Positions 401 through 17,822 of a DNA stretch of 55,015 bases are shown piece by piece. The position numbers and the translations under genes were made by a program. The DNA comes from Nitrospiria bacterium (GTDB lineage Bacteria > Nitrospirota > Nitrospiria > DASWJH01), in assembly GCA_036397255.1 (NCBI GenBank), contig DASWJH010000038.1:1-55015 (forward strand). The letters are read 5' to 3'. The notes under the pieces were generated by a model. It did no database searches. It saw nothing but the letters and a program-made list of their open reading frames with translations, and was not told the DNA's origin. Each line of letters begins with the position of its first letter. Positions within the stretch are counted from its first letter, which is position 1.

Positions 401-3400
401 CTAAAGGGTGATGATGTCATCCCTGCTTTTTTGTTCAGCCTCATTTAAAGCTTGCACCCCTTGGCTAAGGATACTGTGGGGAGTCAAAAATTCATTGGGA
501 TAGGAAGAAACCACCACATTTAAAAAAATAGGCTCTTTGTTTTTACCTTCCATTAAAACACCATGTGTATCTTCCACCAATCCTTTTAACTTTTTCCCCA
601 CCCCAATGGCATTTTCTTTATCCGTTCCATCCAGCATGATTCCAAAGGTACTTCCATAGCAACGGCAAAGGAGGTCTCTTCCTTTTAAATTCTCCTGAAA
701 GATTCGAGCAACCCCTTTGATGGTTTCATCCCCAACTTCTTTTCCTCTCCTTTTATTAAAGTTTTTAAAATGCCGAATGCGTGTAAAAACCAGAGCCAAA
801 GGCTCTTTTCCTTCCTTGGATTTAAATTCGTTTCGGTGAAGAAAATCCTCGAGATATTTTTCATTAAAAAGACCAGTTAAAGGGTCAACCCAATCTTCTT
901 TCCGTCCTTTTTGGGGTTCGGTGATAGGGTTTTTATGGATTTGAGGAATAACTTCCGTTGCCTCCAATTCCGAAGCCTTAATATGCAACCCTTCTTCAGA
1001 TGCGATTCGTTTAGGCAAAATAAACGTAAAGGTACTTCCCCTCCCAAATTGACTGTCCACAAAAATCTGTCCGCCGTGCATATCCACATATTTTTTTGCA
1101 ATGGGCAATCCCAAACCGCTGCCCATATGCTCCCGAGCATCAGAGGAATCCAGTTGTTTAAAATCATCAAAAATTTTCTCCCGGTCCTCTTTTCTTATTC
1201 CTTTTCCATTATCAATCACCGATATTTCTACAGCCGGTTCTCCCTTTAACAAACAAGAAGAAGACCGGATAGAAATGATCCCGTTCTTAGGTGTAAATTT
1301 TATGGCGTTACTTAAAAGGTTTAAAAGAATTTGTTGAACCTTGGTCTGGTCGGCATTAATCATTAACTCCCCATCTTCAAATTTATAATCCTCTCCCTGT
1401 GTTTTGATTTGGAATTCTATTTTCTGTTTTTTTTTCGCCGCCAAAGGAGCCACGGTTACCCGGCATCTTTTCACTAATTTTTCAACAGAAAACTCCCCAA
1501 GTTTAACTTCCATTTTCCCTGCTTTGATTCTGGAAAGATCCAGAAGATTATTAATTTCATTTAATAAAAGCTTTCCGCTCTCCTGAATACTTTCAATACA
1601 TTCATTCTGTTTTGGGTTCAAATCACCGCCTTTCCCGGTTAAAAGGAATTCAGAATTACCAATAATCGAAGTCATCGGGGTTCTCAATTGATGGCTAATA
1701 TTGGAAAAAAATTCCGTTTTAAAACGGTCCGCCTCCTGGAGTTGCTCCACCATGGCTTTCGTCCGTATGAACAAGGTGGCGTTTTCAATGGCAATGCTCA
1801 GTTGACTCCCAATAGACAAAAGCAATTCCATATCTTGGGGAGAAAAAGAACGGGGAGTTCGACTGGCTCCGGTTAATGTTCCCAACACCCTGTCCTTTGA
1901 TTTCAGAGGAATGGCAACCACAGTGACCATTCCCAAACTTTGGAAGGGTCCTCCCGATTTTGGGGTCTTTTTCAAGTCCTCAACCACCACGGGTTGCCCT
2001 TCAAAGGCGGTTTGCCCCGCAAACATCTCTCCGATGGAAATCTCCTGATATTTCTCAATGACCTCACGGGGTAACCCCCGGGACACCTTCAAAACCAGTT
2101 TGTCCGTTGCCTCATCCCGAAGCCGAATGGCCCCCGCGTGAAAATCCATTACCTCCATTACTTTATCCAGGGTACCTTCCAGAAGGGCCTTTAACTCCAA
2201 GGTACGGTTGGTGGTTGTAGCAATAAGATTTAAGGTAGACAACTGTGTGGTTCGTTGTTCCACCTTCTGTTCCAAATTGGAATAGGATTCTTTTAGTTTT
2301 ACCGCCATATTATTAAACTCATTGGCCAGTTGTTCGATTTCATCATTGGTTCGAATATCCAACCGAACATCTAAATTTCCACTGGCAATCTTCTCTGCCC
2401 CATCATGCAAGAGCTGTATGGGTCTGGCCAACTTTTTTGAAAGGAAAATACCCATAAAGGCCACAAAAACAATTAGCGCAATTCCGGAAAAAGCCACCGA
2501 TTGAAGTAGAGAATTGATAGGGGCATAGAGCTCATCCGATCTCTCTCTGATAAAACTATGCCATGTCATTCCAGTGGAATTTTGGGTAATTTCTGAGGTT
2601 TTGACCACTGGGGCAAAACCAATAATGGAATTTTTTTCCACCCTCATCTCATGACTATCATCATCCGCTAAAACCCAATTCGGCAAGGGAGAGGTTATTC
2701 TGGAAACAAGGGTCTCATTTAATAATTTTCCCGTTGGCATGATGGGGCAAATGAGGACACGCCCTATGGAATCAACGAGCATCGCATGCCCAGATTCTCC
2801 AAACCGGATATCTAAAATTGGAGGCCCAAGCAACGCCCGAATGTTATGAAACACCACTAAAATCCCACTAACCTTTTGCTTTTTTTCATCAATAACGGGA
2901 ACCGCCACATTGATAGCCCAAACCTGAGCTTTTTCATTAAAATAAAGGTCCCCTATATAGGTCCTCCCAATCCCGTCATTATAGGCCGTCTTCCACCAGG
3001 GCTTTTCTGCATTGATGAAATCAGGTAAAGGATTAACACTTGCCACCAAAGTCCCTTGATCATTGGTTAGAAAAAAGGCAATATATTTCTCCTTTTTGGT
3101 CATCATATAATTTCTTAAATATCGGGAACTGTCATTATGAAGTATTTCCTCTCTGAGGGAGGGATCTCCCTCTTTCCACAGCCTTTCCAACTGGTTTAAA
3201 TTTTTTGTTTTTTGCATTCCCTCAATTTGCTGGGCTTCTAAATTGGAATTTTCAATGGCCTTTTTAATTTGTATGGTAGTGGCCAGATGTTTTTTACTAT
3301 CCACTTCTCTTTCTATAACCAAATCGGTTTTTTGAGAGGCCTGCAAAGCCAACCCCTTAAAGTTCTCACCCATCGATTCCCGCAACTTCAGCGTTCCATT

Positions 3401-3514
3401 CCAATAGGTAATAAACAATCCAAACAAAACCGGAATCAAACCCACTATCAGCAGGGAAAGCACAATCTTCGTTCTGAGCCACCTCTTTTTAACTTTTAAA
3501 TTTAAGGGCACCAT
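401..3514 (-). CDS. Membrane histidine kinase with HAMP, GAF and degenerate GGDEF domains
   Basis: A 1037-residue sensor kinase. It has a membrane segment near residues 15-37, an extracytoplasmic dCache-like sensor (about 45-330), a second membrane segment (about 338-358), a HAMP linker (358-412), a GAF domain (about 425-580), a dimerisation/phosphoacceptor domain with His608 in SHQLRTP, and an ATPase domain with the N-box around Asn736, DNGKG and GSGLGLP. The C-terminal 160 residues begin DPLTGLFN like a GGDEF domain, but the catalytic loop reads YGSTF (953-957), so it should not make c-di-GMP. It lies downstream of a matching OmpR-type regulator and a small GGDEF-like protein on the same strand, which suggests one signalling unit. 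The ligand is unknown. The domain order is clear; the function of the GGDEF-like tail is inference. Confidence 0.9.
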   Translation of the reverse strand: MVPLNLKVKKRWLRTKIVLSLLIVGLIPVLFGLFITYWNGTLKLRESMGENFKGLALQASQKTDLVIEREVDSKKHLATTIQIKKAIENSNLEAQQIEGMQKTKNLNQLERLWKEGDPSLREEILHNDSSRYLRNYMMTKKEKYIAFFLTNDQGTLVASVNPLPDFINAEKPWWKTAYNDGIGRTYIGDLYFNEKAQVWAINVAVPVIDEKKQKVSGILVVFHNIRALLGPPILDIRFGESGHAMLVDSIGRVLICPIMPTGKLLNETLVSRITSPLPNWVLADDDSHEMRVEKNSIIGFAPVVKTSEITQNSTGMTWHSFIRERSDELYAPINSLLQSVAFSGIALIVFVAFMGIFLSKKLARPIQLLHDGAEKIASGNLDVRLDIRTNDEIEQLANEFNNMAVKLKESYSNLEQKVEQRTTQLSTLNLIATTTNRTLELKALLEGTLDKVMEVMDFHAGAIRLRDEATDKLVLKVSRGLPREVIEKYQEISIGEMFAGQTAFEGQPVVVEDLKKTPKSGGPFQSLGMVTVVAIPLKSKDRVLGTLTGASRTPRSFSPQDMELLLSIGSQLSIAIENATLFIRTKAMVEQLQEADRFKTEFFSNISHQLRTPMTSIIGNSEFLLTGKGGDLNPKQNECIESIQESGKLLLNEINNLLDLSRIKAGKMEVKLGEFSVEKLVKRCRVTVAPLAAKKKQKIEFQIKTQGEDYKFEDGELMINADQTKVQQILLNLLSNAIKFTPKNGIISIRSSSCLLKGEPAVEISVIDNGKGIRKEDREKIFDDFKQLDSSDAREHMGSGLGLPIAKKYVDMHGGQIFVDSQFGRGSTFTFILPKRIASEEGLHIKASELEATEVIPQIHKNPITEPQKGRKEDWVDPLTGLFNEKYLEDFLHRNEFKSKEGKEPLALVFTRIRHFKNFNKRRGKEVGDETIKGVARIFQENLKGRDLLCRCYGSTFGIMLDGTDKENAIGVGKKLKGLVEDTHGVLMEGKNKEPIFLNVVVSSYPNEFLTPHSILSQGVQALNEAEQKSRDDIITL

Positions 3515-3790: not shown

Positions 3791-4252
3791 CTAACGATCA
3801 GGAAAGGATACTTTATTTCCCCCATTTGCTTTAGCAAGGAAAAGCATTCGATCTGCAGTGCACAATAAATGTGCAATATCCGGAGAGTGGGTAGGGAAAC
3901 AGGCCCCTCCAATACTCACCGTCCGATCAACCGGTTTGGATTTAGGCGTATCAATATCTTTTTCAATAAATCCCCTTACCCGTTCAGCCACACAAAAAGC
4001 GTCTTCCCCTTCAACAAACGGGAGAATAACCCAAAACCGTTTGTCGTCTCTCCTGGCAATTAAGTCCGTTCCACGAATTTTCTTCCGAATCAACTGGCAA
4101 ACATGGGGTAATGTTTCATCTGTTTCCGGGTGATCCAATTCCAAATCCAAAAAGGAAACATAATATAAATATCTCATGGCGAGTTTTCCCTCTAACTCCA
4201 AAAGGTATTTAAAGAAATTCATTGGGACAGTAGGACAATGGAAATCAAGCAT
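3791..4252 (-). CDS. Small stand-alone degenerate GGDEF protein
   Basis: I place the start at 4252 because a strong Shine-Dalgarno GGAGGTGA lies just upstream (about 4257-4264). The open frame extends to 4450, but that extension shows no domain. The 153-residue product has the GGDEF fold pattern: LRKKIRGTDLIAR-like strands, then RVRGFIE and TVSIGGACF, ending in an ADRMLFLAK helix as in active enzymes. The catalytic loop reads RRDDKRFWVIL in place of RYGGDEF, so diguanylate cyclase activity is unlikely. It sits between the OmpR-type regulator and the histidine kinase. A role as a c-di-GMP or nucleotide sensor, or as a partner of the kinase's own degenerate GGDEF tail, is inference. Confidence 0.75.
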   Translation of the reverse strand: MLDFHCPTVPMNFFKYLLELEGKLAMRYLYYVSFLDLELDHPETDETLPHVCQLIRKKIRGTDLIARRDDKRFWVILPFVEGEDAFCVAERVRGFIEKDIDTPKSKPVDRTVSIGGACFPTHSPDIAHLLCTADRMLFLAKANGGNKVSFPDR

Positions 4253-4752
4253 GGGGTCACCTCCTTTCAAACAGAACGGAAAAAAAATCGATAACTGGAA
4301 TCCTTTCCTCTTTAAAAAAAAACGCCTTACCTTTGAGCCCATGGTAATATCGTTTTTCGTGTTTGAAATGGTATCATTGGTATTTTTGGCCTCTTCCTCT
4401 CCGGTAAATAACAATTGACCCTTTGAGGTAAGAAAAAATATATCAAACATTTTTAAAGATGGGGTAATCAGTTAATCAAGAAATCTTCAGGGAAGGTCAA
4501 ATTTCAATTTGGTGGAATTGGAAAATCAAAAAAAAGAAGATGACCAAGGAAGGGTCGACCCGCTTACAGGAAAGAATCCGGTTTAAAGAAAGGATCAGGA
4601 AGATTAAAAATCCTGAAAAAAGGGGGAGGATGGACACGAACCAAAAAGCCTATATGATGAGCGAAAAAAGTTTACACCACTTTCCCCTCTCGGAAGAAGG
4701 AGGGAAGTAATTTTAAAAAAAAGCCAGTACTCGCCAACCGGGAAAACTCTTT
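4253..4752 (-). other. 500-base intergenic stretch in the signalling cluster
   Basis: This lies between the response regulator stop and the start of the small GGDEF-like gene. I find the Shine-Dalgarno of the downstream gene at its left edge and a 10-base palindrome GGGTCGACCC at 4552-4561. No convincing coding region is visible. A 26-codon plus-strand frame near 4631 has its purine-rich tract touching the ATG and is not supported. Confidence 0.4.
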
Positions 4753-5502
4753 TTATTCGTCCTCTATATCTGCAAACTTATATCCCATTCCTCTCACCGT
4801 TTTGATATAAATGGGATTGGAGGAATCCTCTTCAATCTTAGCCCTTAAATTTCCAATATGAACATCAATCACGCGGTCAACCACACTTACATCTTCATAG
4901 GAATAAATTTTCTGAATGAGTTGTTCCCGAGAAAAAACCCTCCCGGGCAAATTGGCCAAGGCTTGAAGGATTTCAAATTCATAGACCGTCAATTTGATTT
5001 CCTGGTTTTTAACGGTGACTTTACATTTTTCAAAATCAACCTCCAGGTCCAAATATTTTATTTTTTTTCGAGAACCCGGATCTGTCGGAACACATCGGCG
5101 GAGAATGGCTTTTACCCGCGCAGTCAGTTCCCGGGTACTAAAAGGCTTGGTGATATAATCATCGGCTCCAATGGTTAACCCCAGGATCCTTTCAAACTCA
5201 TCCCCCTTAACCGTTACCATAATGATAGGGACTTTCGACTGTTTTCGGATATGCTGACAGACCTCGAACCCATCCACCTTCGGAAGGCCCAAATCCAGAA
5301 TGATTAAAATAGGGTCATGTTTTTCGAAAAAAGCAATTCCCTCCGGACCATCCTTTGCACAGATGGTCGGAAATCCTTCCGCTTGTAAGGTGTTGGAAAT
5401 CAGAGAAGAAACACTGGAGTCATCTTCAACAATCAAAATGGGGTTGGCTAAACTTTTCTTTTTCATATGCATAGCCTCAGGGGCTTGTTCCATGAGTGCC
5501 AT
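4753..5502 (-). CDS. OmpR/PhoB-family response regulator
   Basis: 249 residues. The receiver domain (about 20-135) has the acidic pair Asp27-Asp28, the phosphoacceptor Asp70 in LDLGLP, Thr97 and Lys119 in the ITKPF motif. The C-terminal winged-helix DNA-binding domain (about 150-245) has the usual VDRVIDVHIGNLRAKI recognition helix and the TVRGMGYKF wing. A Shine-Dalgarno AAGGAG lies just before the ATG at 5502. It is on the same strand as, and upstream of, the histidine kinase at 401-3514, so the two are probably cognate. It resembles KdpE/PhoB types in architecture, but no target genes are evident. The microprotein array lies directly upstream and could be part of its regulon (inference). 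Confidence 0.92.
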   Translation of the reverse strand: MALMEQAPEAMHMKKKSLANPILIVEDDSSVSSLISNTLQAEGFPTICAKDGPEGIAFFEKHDPILIILDLGLPKVDGFEVCQHIRKQSKVPIIMVTVKGDEFERILGLTIGADDYITKPFSTRELTARVKAILRRCVPTDPGSRKKIKYLDLEVDFEKCKVTVKNQEIKLTVYEFEILQALANLPGRVFSREQLIQKIYSYEDVSVVDRVIDVHIGNLRAKIEEDSSNPIYIKTVRGMGYKFADIEDE

Positions 5503-5644: not shown

Positions 5645-5737
5645 CTATAAATCAACATTGGCTATATAATAAACTGAAAGTGCCATGGCTCCAAAGGCTG
5701 CTCCCACCAGAACAAAAGCAAGCATTAAAGACTCCAT
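5645..5737 (-). CDS. Single-pass membrane microprotein, 30 residues
   Basis: A 30-codon frame starts at ATG 5737 after a strong ribosome site (AGGAGGG, about nine bases upstream) and ends in TAG. The product begins MESLMLAFVLVGAAFG and is almost entirely one hydrophobic helix ending YYIANVDL. It is the last of four short minus-strand genes, each with its own Shine-Dalgarno, between 5645 and 6354. It shows no close similarity to the other three beyond length and topology. I do not recognise the family. Short single-helix proteins of this size are often accessory subunits of respiratory complexes, but nothing here shows that. Confidence 0.7.
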   Translation of the reverse strand: MESLMLAFVLVGAAFGAMALSVYYIANVDL

Positions 5738-5890
5738 CTTCTTAACCCTCCTTTCGAAAACTTAACCATCCCCTTTTTACCCACACTCAAACCGGATAGA
5801 CCTAGACCAGTGGGTCAAAATCTCAAATTGGGAATGGTGATACAATTCATCCGTCAAATCAATTTATTTCAAAGGGATTCTACGCAAAAT

Positions 5891-5995
5891 TTAAATCTCA
5901 TCCCTGACCAAAGACCAAACACCAAACCCCACCATCATGGCTAGACCTAATATAGCAGCAATCCCATACTCAAAAAATCCATTCATCGGTTCCAT
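5891..5995 (-). CDS. Membrane microprotein, FFEYG-WSLV paralogue 1
   Basis: A 34-codon frame with ATG at 5995, preceded by GGAGGTGC, ends in TAA. The product begins MEPMNGFFEYGIAA, continues as one hydrophobic helix, and ends WSLVRDEI. It is about two-thirds identical to the copy at 6079-6183 and clearly related to the copy at 6250-6354; the three share FFEYGIAA, a central Gly and Met, and WSLV. Conservation at protein level with differing third codon positions, plus a ribosome site for each copy, argues for real translated genes. The conserved Glu9 next to aromatic residues at the start of the helix is the most distinctive residue. The family and function are unknown to me. Confidence 0.82.
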   Translation of the reverse strand: MEPMNGFFEYGIAAILGLAMMVGFGVWSLVRDEI

Positions 5996-6078
5996 TTTGC
6001 ACCTCCTCTCTCTTATGGCATCTTCTCTCTGCCTCAAGTCAGGTTTAGGTTAAACCTTGAATAAAATTTTGGGTCCCC

Positions 6079-6183
6079 TTAGTTTTCACTGGTAACCAAG
6101 GACCAAATGCTGAGCCCGATCATTAATACCGCGCCCAATACAGCCGCAATTCCGTATTCAAAAAATCCATTCATTGGCTCCAT
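6079..6183 (-). CDS. Membrane microprotein, FFEYG-WSLV paralogue 2
   Basis: A 34-codon frame with ATG at 6183 and an AGGAGG ribosome site just upstream. The N-terminus MEPMNGFFEYGIAA is identical to paralogue 1; the helix then diverges conservatively (Ile/Val, Met/Leu, Phe/Leu exchanges) and ends WSLVTSEN. The pattern of conservative exchange with the same length is what is expected of a duplicated gene under selection. It is predicted to be an inner-membrane single-pass peptide. It sits in the middle of the array with about 70-85 bases to each neighbouring paralogue. Confidence 0.82.
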   Translation of the reverse strand: MEPMNGFFEYGIAAVLGAVLMIGLSIWSLVTSEN

Positions 6184-6249
6184 GGTAAATCCTCCTTTTT
6201 GGTAACCCCCTTTTCGGATGGGGTAAACTGGTTTGAACACACCCTTTCA

Positions 6250-6354
6250 TTAAGATTCCCCTCTCACCAGGCTCCAAATGCTAAAACCAACCATGAGGGC
6301 TGTCCCTATCAACGCTGCAATTCCATATTCAAAGAACCCCCCTAAACCTGTCAT
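6250..6354 (-). CDS. Membrane microprotein, FFEYG-WSLV paralogue 3 (first of the array)
   Basis: A 34-codon frame with ATG at 6354, preceded by AAAGGAGGTGA, one of the strongest ribosome sites in the window. The product begins MTGLGGFFEYGIAA and ends WSLVRGES. It keeps the shared FFEYGIAA and WSLV blocks but has a different first five residues, so it is the most divergent of the three paralogues. It is first in transcription order, and a plausible promoter lies about 90 bases upstream (6445-6473). The strong translation signals suggest high expression, as expected for stoichiometric subunits of a membrane complex (inference). Confidence 0.82.
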   Translation of the reverse strand: MTGLGGFFEYGIAALIGTALMVGFSIWSLVRGES

Positions 6355-6444
6355 AAAATCACCTCCTTTCTAAAAAGTAACCGAATGGATTATTGTTGAT
6401 ATGGTTGTCAAGATACGCCGGGTTTATAAACTAAAATTAAGGGG

Positions 6445-6473
6445 GATATAAAAAAAAATATAGAATGTGTAAA
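6445..6473 (-). promoter_or_regulatory. Candidate sigma-70 promoter of the microprotein array
   Basis: On the minus strand TTTACA (6468-6473) and TATATC (6445-6450) are separated by 17 bases containing a T-run. This would give a leader of roughly 80 bases before the first microprotein. A separate TTGACA at 6406-6411 has no matching -10 element at the usual distance. Confidence 0.4.
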
Positions 6474-6603
6474 GATAGGGTAAAGAACGGAAAATAGAGT
6501 GTCTTGGACAATGACGGGACAACTTTTTTTAAAAAAACCAAGAAAGGATAGAATAAGGGTCTTCAGAGAAAATAAATGGTGGATAAATGGAGGCGTTTAT
6601 TTT

Positions 6604-6801
6604 TTAAAAAACTTTTTGAGAGGACTTTGCCATATCCTTCCGGAAGCGGATTTTTTTAAGCTCTGCCCGGAAAGCTTCGGTTATAAACTCGCTCAGTTTA
6701 TCGTTACTCACCAGACGGTTTAAATCCTCTAAAAGTTTTTTTGGGACGGAGACCTTACAGGACTTGGGAGAGACCACTTTAATTTCAATTAGTTCACTCA
6801 A
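6604..6801 (-). CDS. Ribbon-helix-helix (CopG/Arc-like) small DNA-binding protein
   Basis: I choose the TTG start at 6801 because GGAGGGG lies four bases before it (6806-6812); an ATG at 6846 has no such site. The 65-residue product has a short basic strand (KVSVPKKLL), a helix (EDLNRLV), a turn and a second helix (LSEFITEAFRAELKKIR). This is the ribbon-helix-helix pattern of Arc/CopG/antitoxin-type regulators. No toxin-like gene adjoins it. It lies directly upstream of the microprotein array on the same strand, so it may regulate that array or itself. The family is fairly clear; the target is inference. Confidence 0.65.
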   Translation of the reverse strand: MSELIEIKVVSPKSCKVSVPKKLLEDLNRLVSNDKLSEFITEAFRAELKKIRFRKDMAKSSQKVF

Positions 6802-7058
6802 TTTACCCCTCCAAAGATTACCTGCTTCAAAACGGGAATAAAACATAAATCCCTGCAGACCTGTTGAATTCTCTGATCAGGAGTAAATCCCATCCGATCT
6901 ACAGAAATTTAAACCAACCCAAATGCTACCTTTTTTTTGTGAAGGGTTCATTAAGTTGGGGTTAAATTTATGTAAAGTTTAACTGGAAAATCGTTAAGAG
7001 TTGGTAAAATTAAAAAAGATAATTTTTGTTATTAGCAATCGGAACAAATCCCGGGGAA

Positions 7059-8237
7059 TTAACCGGGAATAATAAGAAAGGATTCACTAGGCGTTGGGGG
7101 AGGAGGGCTAGGGGGAAGAGTGGTCGTAGTGGTTGTTGCAGAAGTAGTTGTTGTGGAACCCGATGTAGTCGTGGTGGTGGTTGAGGTGGTTGTCGCAGAA
7201 GTGGTTGTTGTGGAACCTGATATTGTCGTGGTGGTGGTTGAGGTGGTGGTCGATGTCGTCGTGGTGGTGGTTGAGGGAAGAGGATTAAGAACGTTTGAAC
7301 TCAGAAAGTTAGTGATGGAATTAGTTAAGTCTGCCTTTAAGGCATCAGGGGATAAATTCACCCCGCTTCCACTCACCAACTCTATTGGCGAACCATGAAC
7401 CTTCCCGTCAAAAGTTCCATCCGTAATATCCAGCTCAAGGGCCTCCAGCAAATCCAATACCGTAAAATTGCTAAATCCGGGATTGGCAGCGTCAATATCA
7501 AACGCCTGTTGCGACAGACCCAGGATAATTAAACCGTATTGTGTTGATGGATCCGTAAAATCAATGGGATTGGATAAAGACACATTGGGGAGTATGTTGG
7601 TTATATTAAGGTTGCTCAAATCCAAACCGGAGACCTGAATATGCTGACTGCTCATTTCCTGATTGGCGGAGGCAATGGCGGAGGAGGCAGGATTGCCATC
7701 TAAAATTTTAAAATCGGCTAAAATACACCCCAGTGTAGTATAAGGTGTAATGGCCACCGTATTTATTGCTCCCCCCGGACTCAATTGATCTAAACAGCTT
7801 CTCAGAGGATTTCGCCCTGCAAGGTCCAAAGGATCACCGGTCACTTCATCCACAAAATTTCCACTGTTCAAATTCAATTCCATCAGACCGGTGGCATTTC
7901 CAACGGATAAAGAAAAATTCCCGTTGGTATCGGTTAGTACTTCACCAATGGGGCTGGCCCCTCTCTTACCATCCGGGGCAATGGTCCAAACTTTTACTAA
8001 ACCCTTATCTACGGGACCTTTAACTACACTTCCCATAATGGAAAAAGACTCACTTGGATTCGGCGGTTGGGGGCCAGGGGGTAGTGTCGTTGTGGTGGTT
8101 GAATTTGAAGTGTCATCCCCGCCCCCGCTCCCCCCACCACAGCCCCATGGTCCAAGAAAAAGAACAATCAAAATAAGAGAAAAAAACTGAAAACCTTTGC
8201 TTTTTAAAACTTTATTTAAAAAAAGGCTTAACCTCAC
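7059..8237 (-). CDS. Secreted lipoprotein with Thr-rich linkers
   Basis: 392 residues. A signal peptide ends in a lipobox-like FLGPWGC followed by a Gly/Ser-rich tether, so this is probably an outer-membrane or surface lipoprotein. A short Thr/Pro linker (about 45-60) leads into a module starting PSESFSIMGSVVKGPVDKG that resembles carboxypeptidase-regulatory-like repeats, then a helical region (about 180-320). A long linker of Thr runs broken by SGS and SA (about 325-375) follows. The protein then stops 18 residues after the linker, just where a second copy of the module would begin (PTPSESFLI). It therefore looks like a truncated tandem duplication. The linker DNA is a near-simple repeat rich in ACN codons, prone to slippage. 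The function is unknown. Confidence 0.8.
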   Translation of the reverse strand: MRLSLFLNKVLKSKGFQFFSLILIVLFLGPWGCGGGSGGGDDTSNSTTTTTLPPGPQPPNPSESFSIMGSVVKGPVDKGLVKVWTIAPDGKRGASPIGEVLTDTNGNFSLSVGNATGLMELNLNSGNFVDEVTGDPLDLAGRNPLRSCLDQLSPGGAINTVAITPYTTLGCILADFKILDGNPASSAIASANQEMSSQHIQVSGLDLSNLNITNILPNVSLSNPIDFTDPSTQYGLIILGLSQQAFDIDAANPGFSNFTVLDLLEALELDITDGTFDGKVHGSPIELVSGSGVNLSPDALKADLTNSITNFLSSNVLNPLPSTTTTTTSTTTSTTTTTISGSTTTTSATTTSTTTTTTSGSTTTTSATTTTTTLPPSPPPPTPSESFLIIPG

Positions 8238-9568: not shown

Positions 9569-10447
9569 TCAGCCTTTTTTATCAAAGACCTTTTTCATGG
9601 CCTCTCCGATTACTGCAGGGTTTTTCACCATGGTTACCCCAGCACTCTCTAATGCTTCCACTTTCCCGGCCGCCGTTCCTTTTCCCCCGGTAATAATTGC
9701 ACCGGCATGTCCCATTCTCCGTCCCGGGGGGGCGGTCATCCCAGCAATAAATCCAATAATAGGTTTCTTGACACATTTTGAAATATATTCGGCAGCGGTT
9801 TCTTCCGCATCTCCACCAATTTCTCCAATCATCACAATACCCCGGGTATCGGGATCCGCCTCAAACATCTCCAGAAGATCGACGAAATTGGTCCCCTGAA
9901 CCGGGTCCCCACCAATTCCAATACAGGTGGATTGACCTAACCCCAACTGGGTGAGCTGCCATACCGCTTCGTAGGTTAAGGTTCCGCTTCTAGAAATAAC
10001 ACCCACAGTTCCCCGTTTATGAATAAAACCCGGCATAATTCCGATTTTACACTCCTCTGGGGTAATAATCCCCGGGCAGTTCGGTCCAATCAAACGGGTG
10101 GAACTCCCAAACATTTTTCGTTTCACGCGAACCATATCCATAACGGGAATTCCTTCGGTAATGCAAACCACCAGGGGAATTTGGGAAGAGATCGCCTCGA
10201 GAATCGCATCTGCCGCAAATGCGGGGGGAACAAAAATTAAAGATACATCGGGACGGACCACTTCAGCGGCTTCTTTCACGGTGTTAAATACCGGTATACC
10301 TTCAAATTCGACTCCTCCTTTTCCAGGAGTCACCCCTCCCACAATTTGGGTTCCGTAAGCAGCACAGGCATTGGTGTGAAAAGAGCCTTCCTTTCCGGTA
10401 ATTCCCTGAACAATGACTTTTGTTGCTTTATTGACCAAAATACTCAT
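9569..10447 (-). CDS. sucD: Succinyl-CoA synthetase, alpha subunit
   Basis: 292 residues, typical for SucD. The CoA-binding Rossmann part starts [15 protein letters not shown], and the phosphohistidine is His247 in RRMGHAGAI, followed by the GGKGTAAGK loop. With SucC it interconverts succinate, CoA and ATP with succinyl-CoA. In the reductive direction it activates the succinate made by the fumarate reductase encoded upstream. It is the last gene of the operon running from aclB (17822) to here, 22 bases after sucC. AclA in this operon is a distant homologue with a fused citrate synthase-like domain, but this shorter gene is plainly SucD. Confidence 0.96.
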
Positions 10448-10469
10448 AACAGGATTCCTCTTATTCCCA

Positions 10470-11633
10470 TTAGGATGAGAGCAGTTTTACAATTTTCTTA
10501 GCCCCTTCCCAAAGATCATCAGCAACCACTAGATTTAAACCCGACTGGGCCAATAGAGCTTTTCCTTCTTTTGCATTGGTTCCTTCCAACCGAACAACCA
10601 GGGGAACTTTCACTTCAACTTCCTTGGCCGCATCGATAATTCCACCGGCAATTCTTTCACAACGGACAATTCCCCCGAAAATATTAACAAAAACCCCTTT
10701 CACATTGGGATCGGAAAGTAGAATTTGAAATGCATGCTTCACCGTCTCCTTAGAAGCCCCGCCTCCAACATCCAAAAAATTTGCCGGCTCCGCCCCCGCC
10801 AGCTTAATCACATCCATGGTGGCCATGGCTAATCCCGCGCCATTGACCATACACCCGATATTCCCGTCTAGCTTTACATAATTGAGTCCAAATTCCGAGG
10901 CGCGAATTTCCAAGGGATCCTCCTCATCGAAGTCCCTGTAAGCGCGAATATCCTCATGCTGGAAAAGAGCGTTGTCATCAAAGGAAATTTTTCCATCCAA
11001 CGCAATGACCTTGTTCTCATTGGTCAAAACCAGGGGATTAATTTCCACCAAGGAAGCTCCTTTTTCTGTAAACAACCGATAGAGCTGACCCAACAGCTTC
11101 ACAAAAGGGCCGATGGCCTCTTTTGGAAGACCCAAACGAAAAGCGACGTTTCGTCCCTGAAAAGGCTGAAACCCAACCGCGGGATCGATAAACTCCTTTA
11201 AAATTTTTTCGGGCTTCTGGGCTGCAACTTCTTCAATTTCCACTCCCCCTTCGCTGCTGGAAACAATGACCGGAAACCCGGTTTCCCGATCCACCAAAAG
11301 GCTCAGGTAAAACTCTTTTTTGATGGCAACGCCTTCCTCAACCAAAACCCGTTTGACCCGTTTTCCTTCCGGTCCTGTTTGATGGGTCACCAGGGGTTTT
11401 CCAAGAAGGCCTTCCGCAATGGTTTTGACCTGGCCCCTCTCTTTGGTCAGTTTCACACCCCCTGCTTTTCCACGCCCCCCTGCGTGAATTTGGGCTTTCA
11501 CCACGTAGGGCGATGCACCCAATTCCTTCGCCCAAGCTTCTGCTTCCTGAGGGGTGGAAACCGCCCGGCCCTTTGGAACAGGAACCTCAAAGCGTGAGAA
11601 AAGTTCTTTTGCTTGAAATTCGTGAATATTCAT
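10470..11633 (-). CDS. sucC: Succinyl-CoA synthetase, beta subunit
   Basis: 387 residues, the family's usual length. The N-terminal ATP-grasp domain begins [12 protein letters not shown] and contains the [11 protein letters not shown] loop. The metal/nucleotide part has [12 protein letters not shown] and [12 protein letters not shown], and the C-terminal ligase domain has [15 protein letters not shown] and FLDVGGGAS. It pairs with the adjacent SucD. It lies 28 bases after frdA in the rTCA operon, which places succinate activation directly after fumarate reduction in the gene order. Nucleotide specificity (ATP or GTP) cannot be told from the sequence by eye. Confidence 0.96.
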
Positions 11634-11661
11634 TATGGGTTTTCCTTATGAACGGTTAAGG

Positions 11662-13269
11662 TCAACTGCTTGGTTTTTCTTTATTTCGCCGGACATAATC
11701 TGGAAAAAGCTTGGGGGAAGTCACCTTCGCTTCTATCCCGGCTTTCTTCGCCGTTTCCCGGAATTTTTTTAAATGACCTAAAGTCATTTCCCCATGTTTC
11801 ATCTGCCCCGCTTGCTCGGCGGCGGCTTTTCCCGCTCTCCGCCCGTAAACGATAATATCCAAAAGGGAATTTCCCATTAAACGGTTCCGTCCATGAACTC
11901 CACCCGATGCTTCTCCGGCCACAAAAAGATTTTGCACACCGGAATGACAATTCACATCGATCTGGACACCCCCGTTTTGATAATGCAGGGTGGGATAAAT
12001 CAGAACAGGTTCTTTTCGAATATCGATGGCATACTTTGAGAACTGTTTGATCATATTTGGAAATCGTGTTTCCAATGTATCCTTTCCATTTATCGAATCC
12101 ACCAAAGGCATATCCAACCAAACTCCTTTGCGTCCGGCAGGGGTCTCAACTCCGCGCCCCTCCTCACACTCACGAATGATGCAAGCAGCTACCGCATCGC
12201 GGGTTTCCAACTCATTGACAAAACGCTCCCCACGGACATTTAAAAGCTGAGCGCCTGCGGATCGAATGCCTTCCGTGACGAGGGTGCCTGCCATTTGGTC
12301 AGGATAGATGGCCCCGGTGGGGTGGTACTGAAAGGTGTCGGCTAAAGTAAGCCTTGCTCCAATACGATAGGTGAGGGCCAATCCATCGGCGGTCGCACCG
12401 AAGTGATTACTGGTCGGAAACCCCTGAATATGCAAACGCCCAATCCCTCCGGTTGCCATAATAACGGTTTTTGCCTGCACCACTATCCATTGGTTATTAT
12501 CCAAATTCTTCAATAGGGCCCCTGTACACCTTCCATCTGTTCCACTAAGAAGCTCTACTGCAGGGGAGAATTCTACGACCTGTATATCCTCATTAATCAC
12601 GCAATCCTTGAGAACGCGCATGAGTTCCAAACCGGTATAATCCTTACAGGTTAAAAGCCGGGGTTTCGATGTTCCACCCCCTCCCTTCAGCCTTAGAGAA
12701 CCCTCTCCCTCCTCACGATCAAATTGAACACCGAGATCCAACAACCACTGGGTAGCCGATGGCCCTTCCTCAACCAGCGTTTTTAATAACACGGGGTTAT
12801 TCTTAAGGTGACCCCCAACCATGGCATCTAGGTAATGCCGTACAGGTGAATCATCGGATCCCACGGCAACTTGCATCCCCCCTTCAGCCATAACCGTATT
12901 GGCATCCCCCAATCGCAGTTTGGTGGCCAATAGGACCTTTGCCCCATTTGCCCGGGCTGTTAAAGCAGCCGCTGCACCCGCACCACCCCCTCCAATAATT
13001 AATACATCGGTGGTGTGATCAGGAACCAGTTCGTTGAATTCTTCTGGAACAGGACTCTCCCCCTCCAGAATATCGACTAATTCATGGACAGACGGGTCTC
13101 CCTGATTGGGACCGATTCGAATGGGCCGGTAGGCCTCCTTCTTGTAATCAGGGTGGTACCGGTGTATCACTTCATTTTTATCAGCGGGAGACATCACCGG
13201 AAAAGATTGTTGGATCCGTTTTTCTCTGTTTTTATTAGTCTTTTGCTTTGATTCTTCTAAACTCATCAT
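11662..13269 (-). CDS. frdA: Fumarate reductase/succinate dehydrogenase flavoprotein subunit
   Basis: I take ATG 13269 as the start: it overlaps the TAA of the Fe-S gene by one base (TAATG), implying translational coupling, and gives 535 residues. An N-terminal extension of about 85 residues precedes the FAD-binding site (VLIIGGGGAGAAAALTA). The catalytic region has FQYHPTG and GRNRLMGNSLLD, as in FrdA/SdhA. In the loop where membrane-bound enzymes carry the FAD-linking histidine, this protein reads GDANTVMAEGG, so the flavin is probably non-covalent. No membrane anchor gene is nearby. It is likely a soluble fumarate reductase working in the reductive TCA cycle; L-aspartate oxidase is the nearest alternative, but the operon argues against it. 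Confidence 0.9.
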   Translation of the reverse strand: MMSLEESKQKTNKNREKRIQQSFPVMSPADKNEVIHRYHPDYKKEAYRPIRIGPNQGDPSVHELVDILEGESPVPEEFNELVPDHTTDVLIIGGGGAGAAAALTARANGAKVLLATKLRLGDANTVMAEGGMQVAVGSDDSPVRHYLDAMVGGHLKNNPVLLKTLVEEGPSATQWLLDLGVQFDREEGEGSLRLKGGGGTSKPRLLTCKDYTGLELMRVLKDCVINEDIQVVEFSPAVELLSGTDGRCTGALLKNLDNNQWIVVQAKTVIMATGGIGRLHIQGFPTSNHFGATADGLALTYRIGARLTLADTFQYHPTGAIYPDQMAGTLVTEGIRSAGAQLLNVRGERFVNELETRDAVAACIIRECEEGRGVETPAGRKGVWLDMPLVDSINGKDTLETRFPNMIKQFSKYAIDIRKEPVLIYPTLHYQNGGVQIDVNCHSGVQNLFVAGEASGGVHGRNRLMGNSLLDIIVYGRRAGKAAAEQAGQMKHGEMTLGHLKKFRETAKKAGIEAKVTSPKLFPDYVRRNKEKPSS

Positions 13270-13958
13270 TACCTTAAAGTCTCCCCGCGGGAAGCCCACT
13301 CCATAAAATCACTCTCATTGAAAGATTGAACCCTCTGCCATTCCGGATCAAAGAATCTTCCTTCAATCTCTTGAATTCGCTTCTGCAGTTCAAGGTCCCT
13401 TCCTCTATTTTCCTGGCCCACCACCCGTCTTGAATAAAGCCCCACCCAATGGGGTTTTATCCCAACATCACACACCATGGCACAAAGCCCGCACATGACA
13501 CAATTATAAAAACTCTCTGAAACCGGTTCTAAGTTCCCCCGGATGGCATTTAAAACGCCATCCATCACATTAATGTCTTGGGGACAGGCATTGGTACACG
13601 CCCGGCAACTGACACATCTTTTGGTCTCAGGGTAAATCCGAAGGAGCTCATTCCGAGGATTTTCCAATTCAGAAAACCCGTATTTTCCTTTTCGTTGGAT
13701 GTCGATCGGGAAAAGGCTGAAAGACATTCCCTCCTCAACCGGAATCTGGCAAGCTAACCCGGTTTTCATTTGAGAAGGATTTCCTAAACGGAGGGTTACC
13801 GTACAAGCCCCGCACACACCCCCTAAACAGCCAACCCCGTGGATGGGCTCTTGCCCACTGGCCCAATAGGCTTGGAGAATCGATATTCCCTCGGGGACTT
13901 GATAGGTCTTTCCTTGAATTTCAACAGAAACGGTTTTGTTTTTCTTTTCTTCCTCCAT
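13269..13958 (-). CDS. Fumarate reductase-type iron-sulfur subunit (copy 1)
   Basis: 229 residues. The N-terminal ferredoxin-like domain has Cys44, Cys49, Cys52 and Cys70 (C-x4-C-x2-C-x17-C) for a [2Fe-2S] centre. The C-terminal domain has two complete four-cysteine motifs, Cys115/118/121/125 and Cys153/156/159/163. Classical FrdB/SdhB uses a [3Fe-4S] centre with a changed motif, whereas both sites here have all four cysteines. It should pass electrons to the coupled flavoprotein FrdA. A paralogue of identical length lies 11 bases upstream. The electron donor is not evident; ferredoxin, NADH-linked or quinol-linked routes are all possible without an anchor subunit. Confidence 0.88.
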   Translation of the reverse strand: MEEEKKNKTVSVEIQGKTYQVPEGISILQAYWASGQEPIHGVGCLGGVCGACTVTLRLGNPSQMKTGLACQIPVEEGMSFSLFPIDIQRKGKYGFSELENPRNELLRIYPETKRCVSCRACTNACPQDINVMDGVLNAIRGNLEPVSESFYNCVMCGLCAMVCDVGIKPHWVGLYSRRVVGQENRGRDLELQKRIQEIEGRFFDPEWQRVQSFNESDFMEWASRGETLR

Positions 13959-13969
13959 GTTTTCAGATA

Positions 13970-14659
13970 TTAACGGGTCGCATGGCTATAAGACTTTATT
14001 TCTTCTTCGCTCATTTCAAGGACCTTTTTCCATTCCGTATTGTATTTCCCCTTAGAAATTTCCTGAATCCTCTGTTCCAATCCCTCAGGGCGTTTGGCAA
14101 AGAAAACGCCATGGGTCCGTCGCGCATAAAGCCCCACCTGGTTGGAGGCAATGTCCGCAATACACACCGGAACACATAAACCGCACATCACACAACTCAT
14201 AAATTCATTGGATGCGCCTTCAAAATCACCAAATACCGTTTTCCAAAGGCCCTCTCTCACATTGATCCCTTGAGGGCAGGCTTCGGTACACGCATTGCAA
14301 TTCCGGCACATGGAGGATTCCGGAAAAAATTTAAACAGGTCCTGTTTGGGATCGTTGATTTCCTCTAATTTGTAAGCGGCCCGATGAACGGGGGTATTGG
14401 GCATTATGGAAAAGGACATCCCCTCTTCGATCAACATCTGGCATCCCAAACCCGTTTTCAGCTCGTAACTTCCCGGTGTTCGGTATACGGTGGAGCAGGC
14501 ACCGCAGACGCCTCCCAAGCACCCGATTCCCCGGATGAGTTCATGGCCGGTATACCAATAAGCCTGCACCACAGAAATTCCTTCCGGAACATGGTAAGGT
14601 TTACCCATGATTTCAACCTGAACCGTTTTCGTTTCTTCTTTTTGACTTGTTTTTGCCAT
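13970..14659 (-). CDS. Fumarate reductase-type iron-sulfur subunit (copy 2)
   Basis: 229 residues, a paralogue of the next gene with the same architecture: [2Fe-2S] ligands Cys47, Cys52, Cys55, Cys73, then Cys118/121/124/128 and Cys156/159/162/166 for two [4Fe-4S] centres. The shared block GCLGGVCGAC is nearly identical. The two copies differ most in the last 60 residues. It is transcribed after aclA (129-base gap) and before copy 1. Two Fe-S subunits with one flavoprotein suggest a multi-subunit soluble complex, as described for the fumarate reductase of Hydrogenobacter, or one copy serving another enzyme. Which holds cannot be told from sequence alone. Confidence 0.87.
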   Translation of the reverse strand: MAKTSQKEETKTVQVEIMGKPYHVPEGISVVQAYWYTGHELIRGIGCLGGVCGACSTVYRTPGSYELKTGLGCQMLIEEGMSFSIMPNTPVHRAAYKLEEINDPKQDLFKFFPESSMCRNCNACTEACPQGINVREGLWKTVFGDFEGASNEFMSCVMCGLCVPVCIADIASNQVGLYARRTHGVFFAKRPEGLEQRIQEISKGKYNTEWKKVLEMSEEEIKSYSHATR

Positions 14660-14788
14660 TGATCAGCCTTCTCTTCCCAGCCTTTTTGGGAAATGGTTCG
14701 TGAGTGAAAAGGTGAAAACCACTCGCCAGACCCCTTCCTTTTTACACCCAAGAAAACCGGATTGCATTAGATGATTGAAAACCTTCAT

Positions 14789-16615
14789 CTAATGAAGCGG
14801 GGGAACCTCTCTTTTTTTAGGGCTGGCATAGTTGACCAAATAATTAAATAGTCTGATCAGACGGCTCCCTTGCTGTTTCTGATCAATCCAATGCCCGATC
14901 ATACCAATGGTCCGAGCTAAAATAAAAAAGCCATTCAAGCTTTCAATGGGAAAACCAAGATCAATCAGGATCGCCGCAATGGTTCCATCCACATTTAGGA
15001 TTAAGGTGTCTTTCTTGGCCGTTGTTATTTTTTCCAATTGAAGGGCAAAATCCAAATGAGGGGCAGGAATTCCCAAGCTCTTCACATAACTCACCAGCTC
15101 CTTAACCCGCTTATCCGGGTTTCGAACGCTTTTGACCCGATGGCCAATTCCCGGAACAGGACCCACATTGGCCTTCATATAAGTTAGGAAATCCTCAGGG
15201 GTTAATTGATTCTTTACCGCATAAGTAAACCATTTTCCTGCATCGGTCACTGCCCCACCAAAACGGGGACCAATCATAATCAAGCCCGCAGCCACCGCTT
15301 GGGCCATCTGGATTCCCGCACATGCGGCAATAACCGTGGTGAGGGCACCGCTGACACAAGGCCCATGGTCTGCGGACAGCATAATAATCCGCTTGATGAT
15401 TTCAGCCTCGTGGGTTGAAACCAATTTCTTGTTCCATAATAACCCGATCACGTGAGGAATATGGTAACCCTTATTGATCAGCTCCGAGGCAGGATAACCC
15501 TGATAAAGGGGCTCATCCCCACGATCATCGCTGATGGTGGATTTAATGAGCGGTTGGACAAATACCTCCCCGCTCTTTACGGCTTCGTCCACGGTCATAG
15601 GAAGCTTCGGCAATTTGGAAATGTCGATTTCCACTTCAGATTTGACCTCACCGGTTTCAATCAGTTCTTTATAGACCTCTTTAATGGCCGGTCCCAGTGC
15701 GCCAAAAGTCGCGGGAACAAGGGCACCCGCATCTTTCAGGGCATCGGCTTTGCTTCGTGCAGACCCTTCACCTTGAACACCCTCTTTCGCACCGGCATGG
15801 CCGAACTTCATTCCCTTGGGTAAAACCTCCTGGCAAAACCCGGAAATGACCCCGATTAATCGGATTCGGCGCTTTTTTGCTTTATACCACTGCGCGGCTT
15901 TTTCTTCTAAGTCTCCCCCCATTTCGCCGACGATAATAACGGCCTTGGTTTGGGAATCCTTCTCAAACATTTCAAGGTAGGTCACATAATCAGACCCAGG
16001 ATAGGCATCCCCGCCGATCCCAATCACGGTGGTTACCCCGTCCGCAAATTGACTGGCTATCCAAATGATCTCATTGGAGAGCCCTCCTGATTTGGTCAAA
16101 ACACCAAATGAACCGGGTCTGTACAATTTAGACAGAACCAAATTGTCAAAGGCTCCCCCGGCTACGCCTAAACGGCACTCTCCTGCGGACATAATGCCAA
16201 TGGCAGAGGGTCCGTTAAAAATCTTTCCAAGACGCCTCGCCTCCCGGCCCAACATTTTGGCGTCTTTTTCAGGAACACCCTCCGTAATCATAGAGACCAG
16301 CTTAATGCCATTTTCTTTGAGAGCCTCCATGGCCGCTTTATAGGCCCGGTCAGGACCGACATAAATCAGACTGGTGTTAATTTCCGGAAAATGGGCCATG
16401 GCCTCACCCACGGTTTTAAAAATTGGAATAGATATTAGTTCACTCCCGTAAGGAACTTCAGCAGTATTTCCTGCATCGGGAGGAAATACAAACGCTTTTA
16501 CATTTAAAGGACTCTTAATTAAATGACAAAATTCCGCCATCCTTCGTGCAGCATTGACCCCTGCAGGCCCACCCTGGATGACCACACGCGTGCCTTTCGT
16601 AGCAACGATACTCAT
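14789..16615 (-). CDS. aclA: ATP-citrate lyase, large subunit (AclA)
   Basis: 608 residues, the length typical of AclA in the two-gene form of the enzyme. The N-terminal half is SucD-like, with the phosphohistidine His273 in KFGHAGAKEG. The C-terminal half (about 350-608) is citrate synthase-like, with LSADHGPCVSGAL, a Gly-rich GLIMIGPRFGGAV region and PGIGHRV carrying the catalytic histidine. With AclB it cleaves citrate, using ATP and CoA, into oxaloacetate and acetyl-CoA, the diagnostic step of the reductive TCA cycle. It begins four bases after aclB. It is the strongest evidence that the host fixes carbon by this route. Confidence 0.97.
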   Translation of the reverse strand: MSIVATKGTRVVIQGGPAGVNAARRMAEFCHLIKSPLNVKAFVFPPDAGNTAEVPYGSELISIPIFKTVGEAMAHFPEINTSLIYVGPDRAYKAAMEALKENGIKLVSMITEGVPEKDAKMLGREARRLGKIFNGPSAIGIMSAGECRLGVAGGAFDNLVLSKLYRPGSFGVLTKSGGLSNEIIWIASQFADGVTTVIGIGGDAYPGSDYVTYLEMFEKDSQTKAVIIVGEMGGDLEEKAAQWYKAKKRRIRLIGVISGFCQEVLPKGMKFGHAGAKEGVQGEGSARSKADALKDAGALVPATFGALGPAIKEVYKELIETGEVKSEVEIDISKLPKLPMTVDEAVKSGEVFVQPLIKSTISDDRGDEPLYQGYPASELINKGYHIPHVIGLLWNKKLVSTHEAEIIKRIIMLSADHGPCVSGALTTVIAACAGIQMAQAVAAGLIMIGPRFGGAVTDAGKWFTYAVKNQLTPEDFLTYMKANVGPVPGIGHRVKSVRNPDKRVKELVSYVKSLGIPAPHLDFALQLEKITTAKKDTLILNVDGTIAAILIDLGFPIESLNGFFILARTIGMIGHWIDQKQQGSRLIRLFNYLVNYASPKKREVPPLH

Positions 16616-16619
16616 TTTC

Positions 16620-17822
16620 TCAACCCCCTCCTTTAATCGAGAAATTCACAATATCCGTTAACGGGGTGGTCCGATCAAACACATGGATCTTAAACCCTTC
16701 CTCTTCGAGGGCCTGCATGGCTTCTAGTCCCTCTTTCTCATAAGGTCCTCCCCGTCTGACCCAAATCTCAACACCGTCCAGTTTTCCCTTTGCCTTAGCA
16801 CGCCTGAACCCATTGATGATTCCAGAAAAGGTTTTCTTAACGTTGGTGAAGTTTGCAATGGCTCCCCCCACAATAATCCGCTTGATTCCAGGAAGGGAAC
16901 ACACTTTGTCGGTCAGCGCTTCCACCGCCCAATCCGCCGGATCTCCGGAATACTCCGCATAATTGGCCAGCTTTCCACCCATCGCGACCACCGCATCCGC
17001 ATAAAACACACTGGCACCTCCACCCGCAGGCAGAAGAGCGGTATCCCCACCCGGGATTTGGATAAATTTTACGGATCCTTTGATTCGGGAATCTATTTCT
17101 ATAATCGCTTTTTCATCATCGGAATATGGCCGCCCAAACTCCGATGCAAAAGAGAAATCCCAATCCTTATGGCGGAACCGGGCATCCCCATCCAGCATGG
17201 TCACGGCGTCCAACGCAACTACAGAATCATTCGAAGACCGCAATACCAGCGGGTTGATCTCAATATACGTTCCGTCTTCATTCTCGTAGGCGTTAAACAA
17301 CTTGATGGTAAATTCAACCACCTTTGGGGTTAGCTTGGCATCAAAACCGGCCTCCTTGGCAAGTTTTTTCAAATCCTCCTCTTTGGGTTTTTCACCCAAT
17401 TCGACAAAAACCCTCTTGACTCGATCCCAATGCCCTTCAATTTCAATTCCCCCCATGGAAGCTAAAAGTATTTCTGCTCCTTCACGAACGGATTTTACTG
17501 CGACATAAAATTCTTCTTTATGGGGAACCATTTCCGAAACGATGACTTGAGAAATGGCCAATCCCTCCACTGTTTTGCCCAGCATTTCTTTGGCCTCCTT
17601 CTTTGCAGTGGCCAAATTAACATCCACTTTTACCAAACCCAGTTTGAAACGGGACCCGATCGCCTCATGGGCTTTGACCACCAGCTTCCCTTTTTTTAAC
17701 CAGTCGTTGGCTTCAGCCAACTGCTCCAACTGGTCCACCGAAGTAATCACTGCATAGTTCGGGACGGACATTCCCCACTTTCTTAAAAGGCCCATTCCGG
17801 GGCCTTCTAACACCTTAGCCAT
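16620..17822 (-). CDS. aclB: ATP-citrate lyase, small subunit (AclB)
   Basis: 400 residues, SucC-like with an ATP-grasp domain. It starts MAKVLEGPGMGLLRKWG, has KAHEAIGSRFKLGLVKVD near residue 50 and EINPLVLR, and ends in a ligase domain with LLPAGGGASVFYADAV. It forms the citrate-activating part of ATP-citrate lyase with AclA. The ribosome site GGGGAGG lies before ATG 17822. It is the first gene of the seven-gene rTCA operon, so the operon promoter should lie in the non-coding stretch just upstream. Genes for 2-oxoglutarate:ferredoxin oxidoreductase, malate dehydrogenase, fumarase and aconitase are not in the window. Confidence 0.97.
   Translation of the reverse strand: MAKVLEGPGMGLLRKWGMSVPNYAVITSVDQLEQLAEANDWLKKGKLVVKAHEAIGSRFKLGLVKVDVNLATAKKEAKEMLGKTVEGLAISQVIVSEMVPHKEEFYVAVKSVREGAEILLASMGGIEIEGHWDRVKRVFVELGEKPKEEDLKKLAKEAGFDAKLTPKVVEFTIKLFNAYENEDGTYIEINPLVLRSSNDSVVALDAVTMLDGDARFRHKDWDFSFASEFGRPYSDDEKAIIEIDSRIKGSVKFIQIPGGDTALLPAGGGASVFYADAVVAMGGKLANYAEYSGDPADWAVEALTDKVCSLPGIKRIIVGGAIANFTNVKKTFSGIINGFRRAKAKGKLDGVEIWVRRGGPYEKEGLEAMQALEEEGFKIHVFDRTTPLTDIVNFSIKGGG

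Follow-up and report, generated by a model that had tools for sequence, protein, structure and literature searches.

The array of four microprotein genes described here is probably both the output and a part of a two-component operon, and its peptides would serve as signal-induced inner-membrane effectors. In this study, the window, a stretch of 55,015 nucleotides from a Nitrospiria bacterium (contig DASWJH010000038.1), was analysed together with a comparison set of 270 genomes of the class, in which the window genome (G000) is the only member of its family. The peptide genes are under coding selection, keep their order relative to the regulator and kinase genes, and share an operator that is restricted to genomes with this kinase. 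Comparison of the loci gives good support to the placement of the peptide genes under an inducible regulatory system, and the array looks like the main output of the signalling system because relatives elsewhere carry the same switch-like DNA element. A regulated, stress-type set of membrane peptides had been offered as one possibility in the preliminary description, and it is supported by the shared operator, the two-component linkage and the selection.

Table 1. Array genes, neighbouring regulatory genes and upstream DNA elements in the window
Feature	Positions	Strand	Basis
Sensor histidine kinase (dCache, HAMP, GAF, HisKA, HATPase, GGDEF)	401-3514	minus	Pfam
Short GGDEF-domain protein	3791-4318, reading frame reaching 4450	minus	Pfam GGDEF
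OmpR/PhoB-type response regulator (Response_reg + Trans_reg_C)	4753-5502	minus	Pfam
Type B microprotein P1, 30 aa, MESLMLAFVLVGAAFGAMALSVYYIANVDL	5645-5737	minus	ORF, SD, selection test
Type A microprotein P2, 34 aa, MEPMNGFFEYGIAAILGLAMMVGFGVWSLVRDEI	5891-5995	minus	ORF, SD, selection test
Type A microprotein P3, 34 aa, MEPMNGFFEYGIAAVLGAVLMIGLSIWSLVTSEN	6079-6183	minus	ORF, SD, selection test
Type A microprotein P4, 34 aa, MTGLGGFFEYGIAALIGTALMVGFSIWSLVRGES	6250-6354	minus	ORF, SD aaaggaggtgat, profile family, selection test
-10-like box TATAAA	6423-6428	minus	8 nt past last repeat; read by position equivalence with other loci
Array operator CTTTACCCTAT CTTTACACATT CTATATTTTT TTTTATATCCC CCTTAA	6437-6485	minus	Held-out matrix score 21.3 bits, 0/500 shuffles
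Putative RHH-like DNA-binding protein, 65 aa, TTG start	6604-6801	minus	Residue pattern by eye
Operator-like repeats upstream of RHH-like gene (suggestive only)	6961-7009	minus	10.1 bits, 1/500 shuffles

Peptide genes, coding selection and topology

The four genes encode peptides of 30-34 residues, all lie on the minus strand and are each preceded by an AGGAGG-type Shine-Dalgarno (SD) sequence at normal spacing, in agreement with the strong ribosome sites described earlier; the spacers between the tandem frames measure 66-153 nt. Alignment confirmed that three copies (P2-P4), termed type A, have FFEYGIAA, here extended to GFFEYGIAA, and WSLV in common. The three are alike at 18 of 34 positions, including G6-F-F-E-Y-G-I-A-A14, G17, M21, G23 and W27-S-L-V30. 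P1, already recognised as a distinct peptide, was named type B. As judged from the sequences, P2-P4 are paralogues under purifying selection and type B is a separate peptide.

Among the three type A copies, pS was 0.78-0.87 and pN 0.18-0.29, and 32-43 of 102 nucleotides differ, yet merely 11-13 residues do. Neutral simulation with equal numbers of substitutions predicted 19-23 residue differences, and the observed count was reached in none of 2000 simulations. An exact dN/dS is not given for type A because the classical dS is saturated, and the ratio is still far below one. For type B, pS was 0.82 and pN 0.33. Selection on the protein, as proposed earlier, therefore stands, since dN/dS among the copies is far below one and other genomes contain independent homologues in which start, SD and stop are kept. 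The frames are very short and might be read as untranslated chance ORFs in a regulatory leader; the synonymous bias, the kept start, SD and stop, and the homologues in several genomes make this barely credible, and the selection test in particular argues strongly against it.

No significant match to type A was found in Pfam, NCBIfam, PHROGs, PADLOC or PDB chains (the last searched with the type A profile), none to type B in Pfam or NCBIfam, the two databases searched for it, and none in Rfam, which upholds the earlier remark that the motif belongs to no named family. These results support the view that the microproteins are real membrane peptides of an unnamed family. In all 15 peptides compared, K and R are absent ahead of the helix, and the longer peptides carry 2-7 such residues after it; some members have soluble C-terminal tails. 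By the positive-inside rule, whereby positively charged residues favour the cytoplasmic side, this distribution makes an N-out/C-in orientation in the membrane likely.

Read along the minus strand, the gene order is RHH-like gene, P4, P3, P2, P1, response regulator, GGDEF protein and histidine kinase, with P4 as the first gene of the array. The GGDEF protein has a homologue of 42% identity that adjoins the kinase in genome G271. The downstream two-component regulator had been listed as mere context, yet it belongs to the conserved unit. The upstream RHH protein fared less well: a gene is present and its residue pattern fits by eye, but no profile match exceeded the cut-off (best NCBIfam YlcI/YnfO, E 0.013; no Pfam RHH), and the gene is not conserved at other loci. 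Elsewhere in the window, positions 7059-8237 hold a 392-residue lipoprotein-like frame with a Thr/Ser-rich tail of near-identical repeats and no Pfam match. Positions 9569-17822 hold genes assigned by eye as succinyl-CoA synthetase-like, a fumarate reductase/succinate dehydrogenase-like flavoprotein, ferredoxin-type iron-sulfur proteins and a two-gene ATP-citrate-lyase-like set, and this region looks like a reductive TCA cluster.

Relatives and gene order in other genomes

Two GTDB contig scans with tblastn confirmation returned no homologue of the 34-residue query, which was probably too short for the threshold; whole genomes were searched successfully with profiles. With a profile built from the array copies P2-P4, two more type A genes were detected in the window genome (contigs C25 and C67), two in G271, a single one in G119 and a weaker match in G306, and an eight-sequence profile added a type A gene in G299. 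In the 270 genomes, orthologues of the sensor part of the kinase at 54-55% identity occurred in G119, G271 and G299 alone, the next best match being 41%. Counting G000, 4 of 270 genomes have a close kinase orthologue; all four carry type A genes, and the close type A genes were found in these same four. Their nearest relatives G131, G298 and G300, which belong to the same families, have neither this kinase nor a type A match. The response regulator of the window has orthologues of 63-69% identity in G119, G271 and G299; across the set the regulators are 63-75% identical, and the DNA-recognition region EDVSVVDRVIDVH is the same in all four genomes.

The order of the window recurs in G119, which belongs to another family. 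On its contig C20, a type-A-like gene (MQPLGSLAYGLAMLLGFLGMMAWSTHLSATLAP) lies 13 nt upstream of the one clear relative of type B (E 0.0025 alone, 59% identity over 27 residues), the regulator gene follows about 145 nt downstream and the kinase gene is next, giving A-B-RR-HK. This type-A-like peptide is just 27% identical to P2, and it was accepted as type A on account of its position, ribosome site and operator, not of similarity alone. Another type A gene of G119, on contig C5, lies away from the kinase and has a weak operator. The type A gene of G299 stands between kinase and regulator (HK-A-RR), and one in G271 lies a few kb from an RR-HK-GGDEF module. On the short contig C67 of the window genome (5.8 kb), a B-like frame of 24 residues (MEPFIFGNLLMATASLYYFLLLSR), whose kinship to type B is putative, comes after a type A gene, and both precede a regulator gene of the NarL/LuxR type, not of the OmpR type.

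Three groups of candidates were set aside. A DNA match on contig C73 of G000, where no peptide gene is present, and profile matches inside a 446-aa transporter-like frame of many genomes were discarded as chance; a match on contig C12 of G231 (MILLVLGIAAGF..., profile E 7.8e-5) has neither the motif nor the context and was left out of the counts.

In two further families, represented by G306 and G449, the gene for a PAS-sigma54 activator is followed by a type-A-like gene whose product has a longer soluble tail; the two activators are 69% identical. The initial profile of three sequences had detected the G306 gene (E 3e-5 for one genome); that of G449 is weak by sequence alone (5e-4) but has the same context. 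Both carry TGGCATNNNNNTTGCT 55-65 nt before the ATG, with TGGCAT-N5-TTGCT, a standard -24/-12 element, at -65 and -55. The two loci (L054 710-2461 and L138 4844-6641) represent a conserved pair of an activator gene and a microprotein gene with a sigma54 promoter across two families. The arrangement resembles Psp-type sigma54 membrane-stress genes in that an activator gene adjoins a gene that encodes a small membrane protein and carries a -24/-12 element, but no PspA, B, C or F homologue was identified, the activator has a PAS domain, and the peptides are unrelated by profile.

Similar segments were also observed in longer proteins. Frames of about 780 residues in G119 (contig C4, L140 4137-6473) and G297 (contig C63, L130) contain a type-A-like membrane segment (GFLEFGAAALLG and GFIEYGLAAMTG, respectively) that joins an N-terminal, apparently exported domain to an iron-containing alcohol dehydrogenase. 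A 174-residue exported protein in G139 (contig C70, L139 5529-6053), with no Pfam match, ends in GGFFEYGLGAILSFLFVGYLMARN and a short tail, which is another GFFEYG segment at a membrane crossing. These segments may be homologous or convergent.

A shared operator upstream of type A genes

Alignment of the DNA upstream of type A genes gave the consensus CTTTACC.Ttt CTTaAcAcAAT CTTtAtAAAA.TTtAC.Tc.. CTTTAT, that is, an operator of five direct repeats (CTTWAC) with a spacing of 11-11-10-11. The repeats end 7-8 nt before a -10-like box, and the element lies 120-136 nt before the type A ATG. In the window, the operator lies 131 nt upstream of P4, and its first two repeats are well kept and repeats 3-5 degenerate.

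The fetched loci were scanned with a matrix from which each site was held out in turn, and whole genomes were scanned with a pattern that allows three mismatches, the reversed pattern serving as a control. Held-out scores of seven sites were 21-53 bits, which shuffled sequences never attained, against a background mean of about -10 (-20 in the G+C-rich genome). No comparable further site was present in the fetched loci, which amount to about 486 kb with both strands included. The pattern scan returned eight matches, corresponding to seven distinct sites that all lie in G000, G119, G271 and G299, and the reversed control returned none; extension to the 270 class genomes added no site. Five of the seven directly precede a type A gene at 120-136 nt before its start. 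The sixth precedes the regulator gene in G271, which suggests autoregulation, and the seventh a gene for a secreted NHL-repeat protein in G299. At the last locus (G299 contig C67, L110 1677-2390), the NHL-repeat frame has an internal SD-led start (~2125), possibly of a separate membrane protein. Unlinked type A copies also carry the shared operator; the versions before the window array, the C25 copy and the G119 contig C5 copy are weaker and fall outside the strict pattern. The matrix scan found no operator in front of the type B gene or the regulator gene of the window, which fits one transcript from P4 onward.

As in the Pho regulon, the operator consists of tandem direct repeats, each about 11 bp long, that stand upstream of a -10 box. 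SphR occupies three or more 8-bp CTTAACCT repeats; linkers of 3 bp separate repeats of the PhoB type, and the PhoB sites of E. coli stop 10 bp short of the -10 (PMC1906773). The present system shares with the PhoB/SphR Pho boxes a regulator of the OmpR/PhoB family and CTTAAC-like direct repeats of about 11 bp that end shortly before the -10 (PMC1906773). It differs in having five repeats in an 11-11-10-11 register, in its kinase, which is a dCache-HAMP protein and not PhoR-like, and in its targets, since every site found lies before a microprotein gene, the regulator gene or the gene of one secreted protein. No such site was found before pst/pho genes in pattern scans of the four genomes, in which pst genes were not located and which a two-repeat Pho box would escape. 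From the co-occurrence, the type of regulator and the site before the G271 regulator gene, we infer that the linked OmpR/PhoB-type regulator binds the operator.

Proposed mechanism and competing explanations

In the proposed mechanism, the sensor kinase with its periplasmic dCache domain and the OmpR/PhoB-type regulator would answer an envelope or small-molecule signal. The phosphorylated regulator would bind the five tandem repeats just upstream of the -10 box and would activate, rather than repress, a sigma70-type promoter, thereby yielding plentiful single-helix peptides of 30-60 residues, types A and B, together with the regulator itself. Type A genes at unlinked loci that carry this operator would be switched on simultaneously. 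In the inner membrane, the peptides would lie N-out, with their GFFEYG motif on the periplasmic side, and would act as membrane effectors by altering membrane properties or by assembling with a membrane partner. Against this reading, the regulator gene that follows the type A and B-like genes on C67 of the window genome is of the NarL type, the operator of the window itself is well kept in two of its five repeats only, the C5 copy of G119 lies apart from the kinase with a weak operator, and the full system occurs in four genomes only.

Small membrane connectors such as SafA and MzrA are known in two-component signalling, and MgrB is oriented N-in. The main rival, which we consider rather unlikely, is that peptides induced by the regulator bind the transmembrane/HAMP part of the adjacent kinase and damp or tune it. 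It was retained as such since MgrB shows such feedback to be possible: this inner-membrane peptide of 47 residues belongs to the PhoP regulon and represses PhoQ (PMC2789325; PMC8404706). Like MgrB, the peptides are small and single-pass, and they are probably members of a two-component regulon: type A genes have an OmpR/PhoB-type operator upstream and lie in the operon of the regulator that would bind it. Moreover, the peptide genes adjoin the kinase gene, and close type A genes track its orthologue across genomes. However, they form a multicopy tandem array beside the kinase, have the GFFEYG motif and are expected to be N-out, and searches of Pfam and NCBIfam gave no homology to MgrB. The several copies, tandem and unlinked, suggest dosage and not a single-target regulator, and the type-A-like genes of G306 and G449 go with a PAS-sigma54 activator and have no neighbouring kinase gene. 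The effector reading was favoured over kinase feedback for three reasons: the number of copies, their dispersal and this kinase-free sigma54 context.

The preliminary description had also proposed small subunits of a membrane oxidoreductase. Accessory subunits of an oxidoreductase or transporter, such as CydX, CcoQ and KdpF, would fit the size and the single helix of 30-40 residues, and by-eye labels place a type A gene of G119 a few kb from bd-like oxidase genes and one of G271 3' of a multihaem cytochrome gene. The G271 copy, however, has its own operator between the cytochrome gene and the peptide gene, and no respiratory or transporter gene recurs across the neighbourhoods in six genomes. 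At none of the loci seen is a large subunit encoded with the peptides; Pfam and NCBIfam link them to no accessory subunit of this kind, and PDB gave no significant match. The proposal was not borne out and is improbable. Slightly less probable still are hydrophobic type I toxin-like peptides silenced by antisense RNAs, such as Ldr or Ibs, a reading that the tandem paralogous 34-residue peptides and their short spacers might recall; strong SD sites, a shared activator-type operator, the fixed place in a two-component operon and the soluble C-terminal tails of some members speak against it. A consensus promoter scan of both strands gave scores no better than shuffles, and the Rfam search was empty.

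Membrane microproteins are hard to recognise and mostly come without a functional clue. The shared operator and the conserved operon tie an unnamed family to one signalling system, which opens the family, the regulator and the conditions of induction to direct tests. Further genes of this kind can also be sought through the operator, with no need to rely on the very short peptide sequence. We tentatively suggest that membrane microproteins make up nearly all of the recognisable regulon of this two-component system, that its tandem and dispersed GFFEYG peptides may jointly be the response itself in the inner membrane, and that the family may in other lineages have come under a sigma54 activator and may supply a membrane segment to larger fusion proteins.
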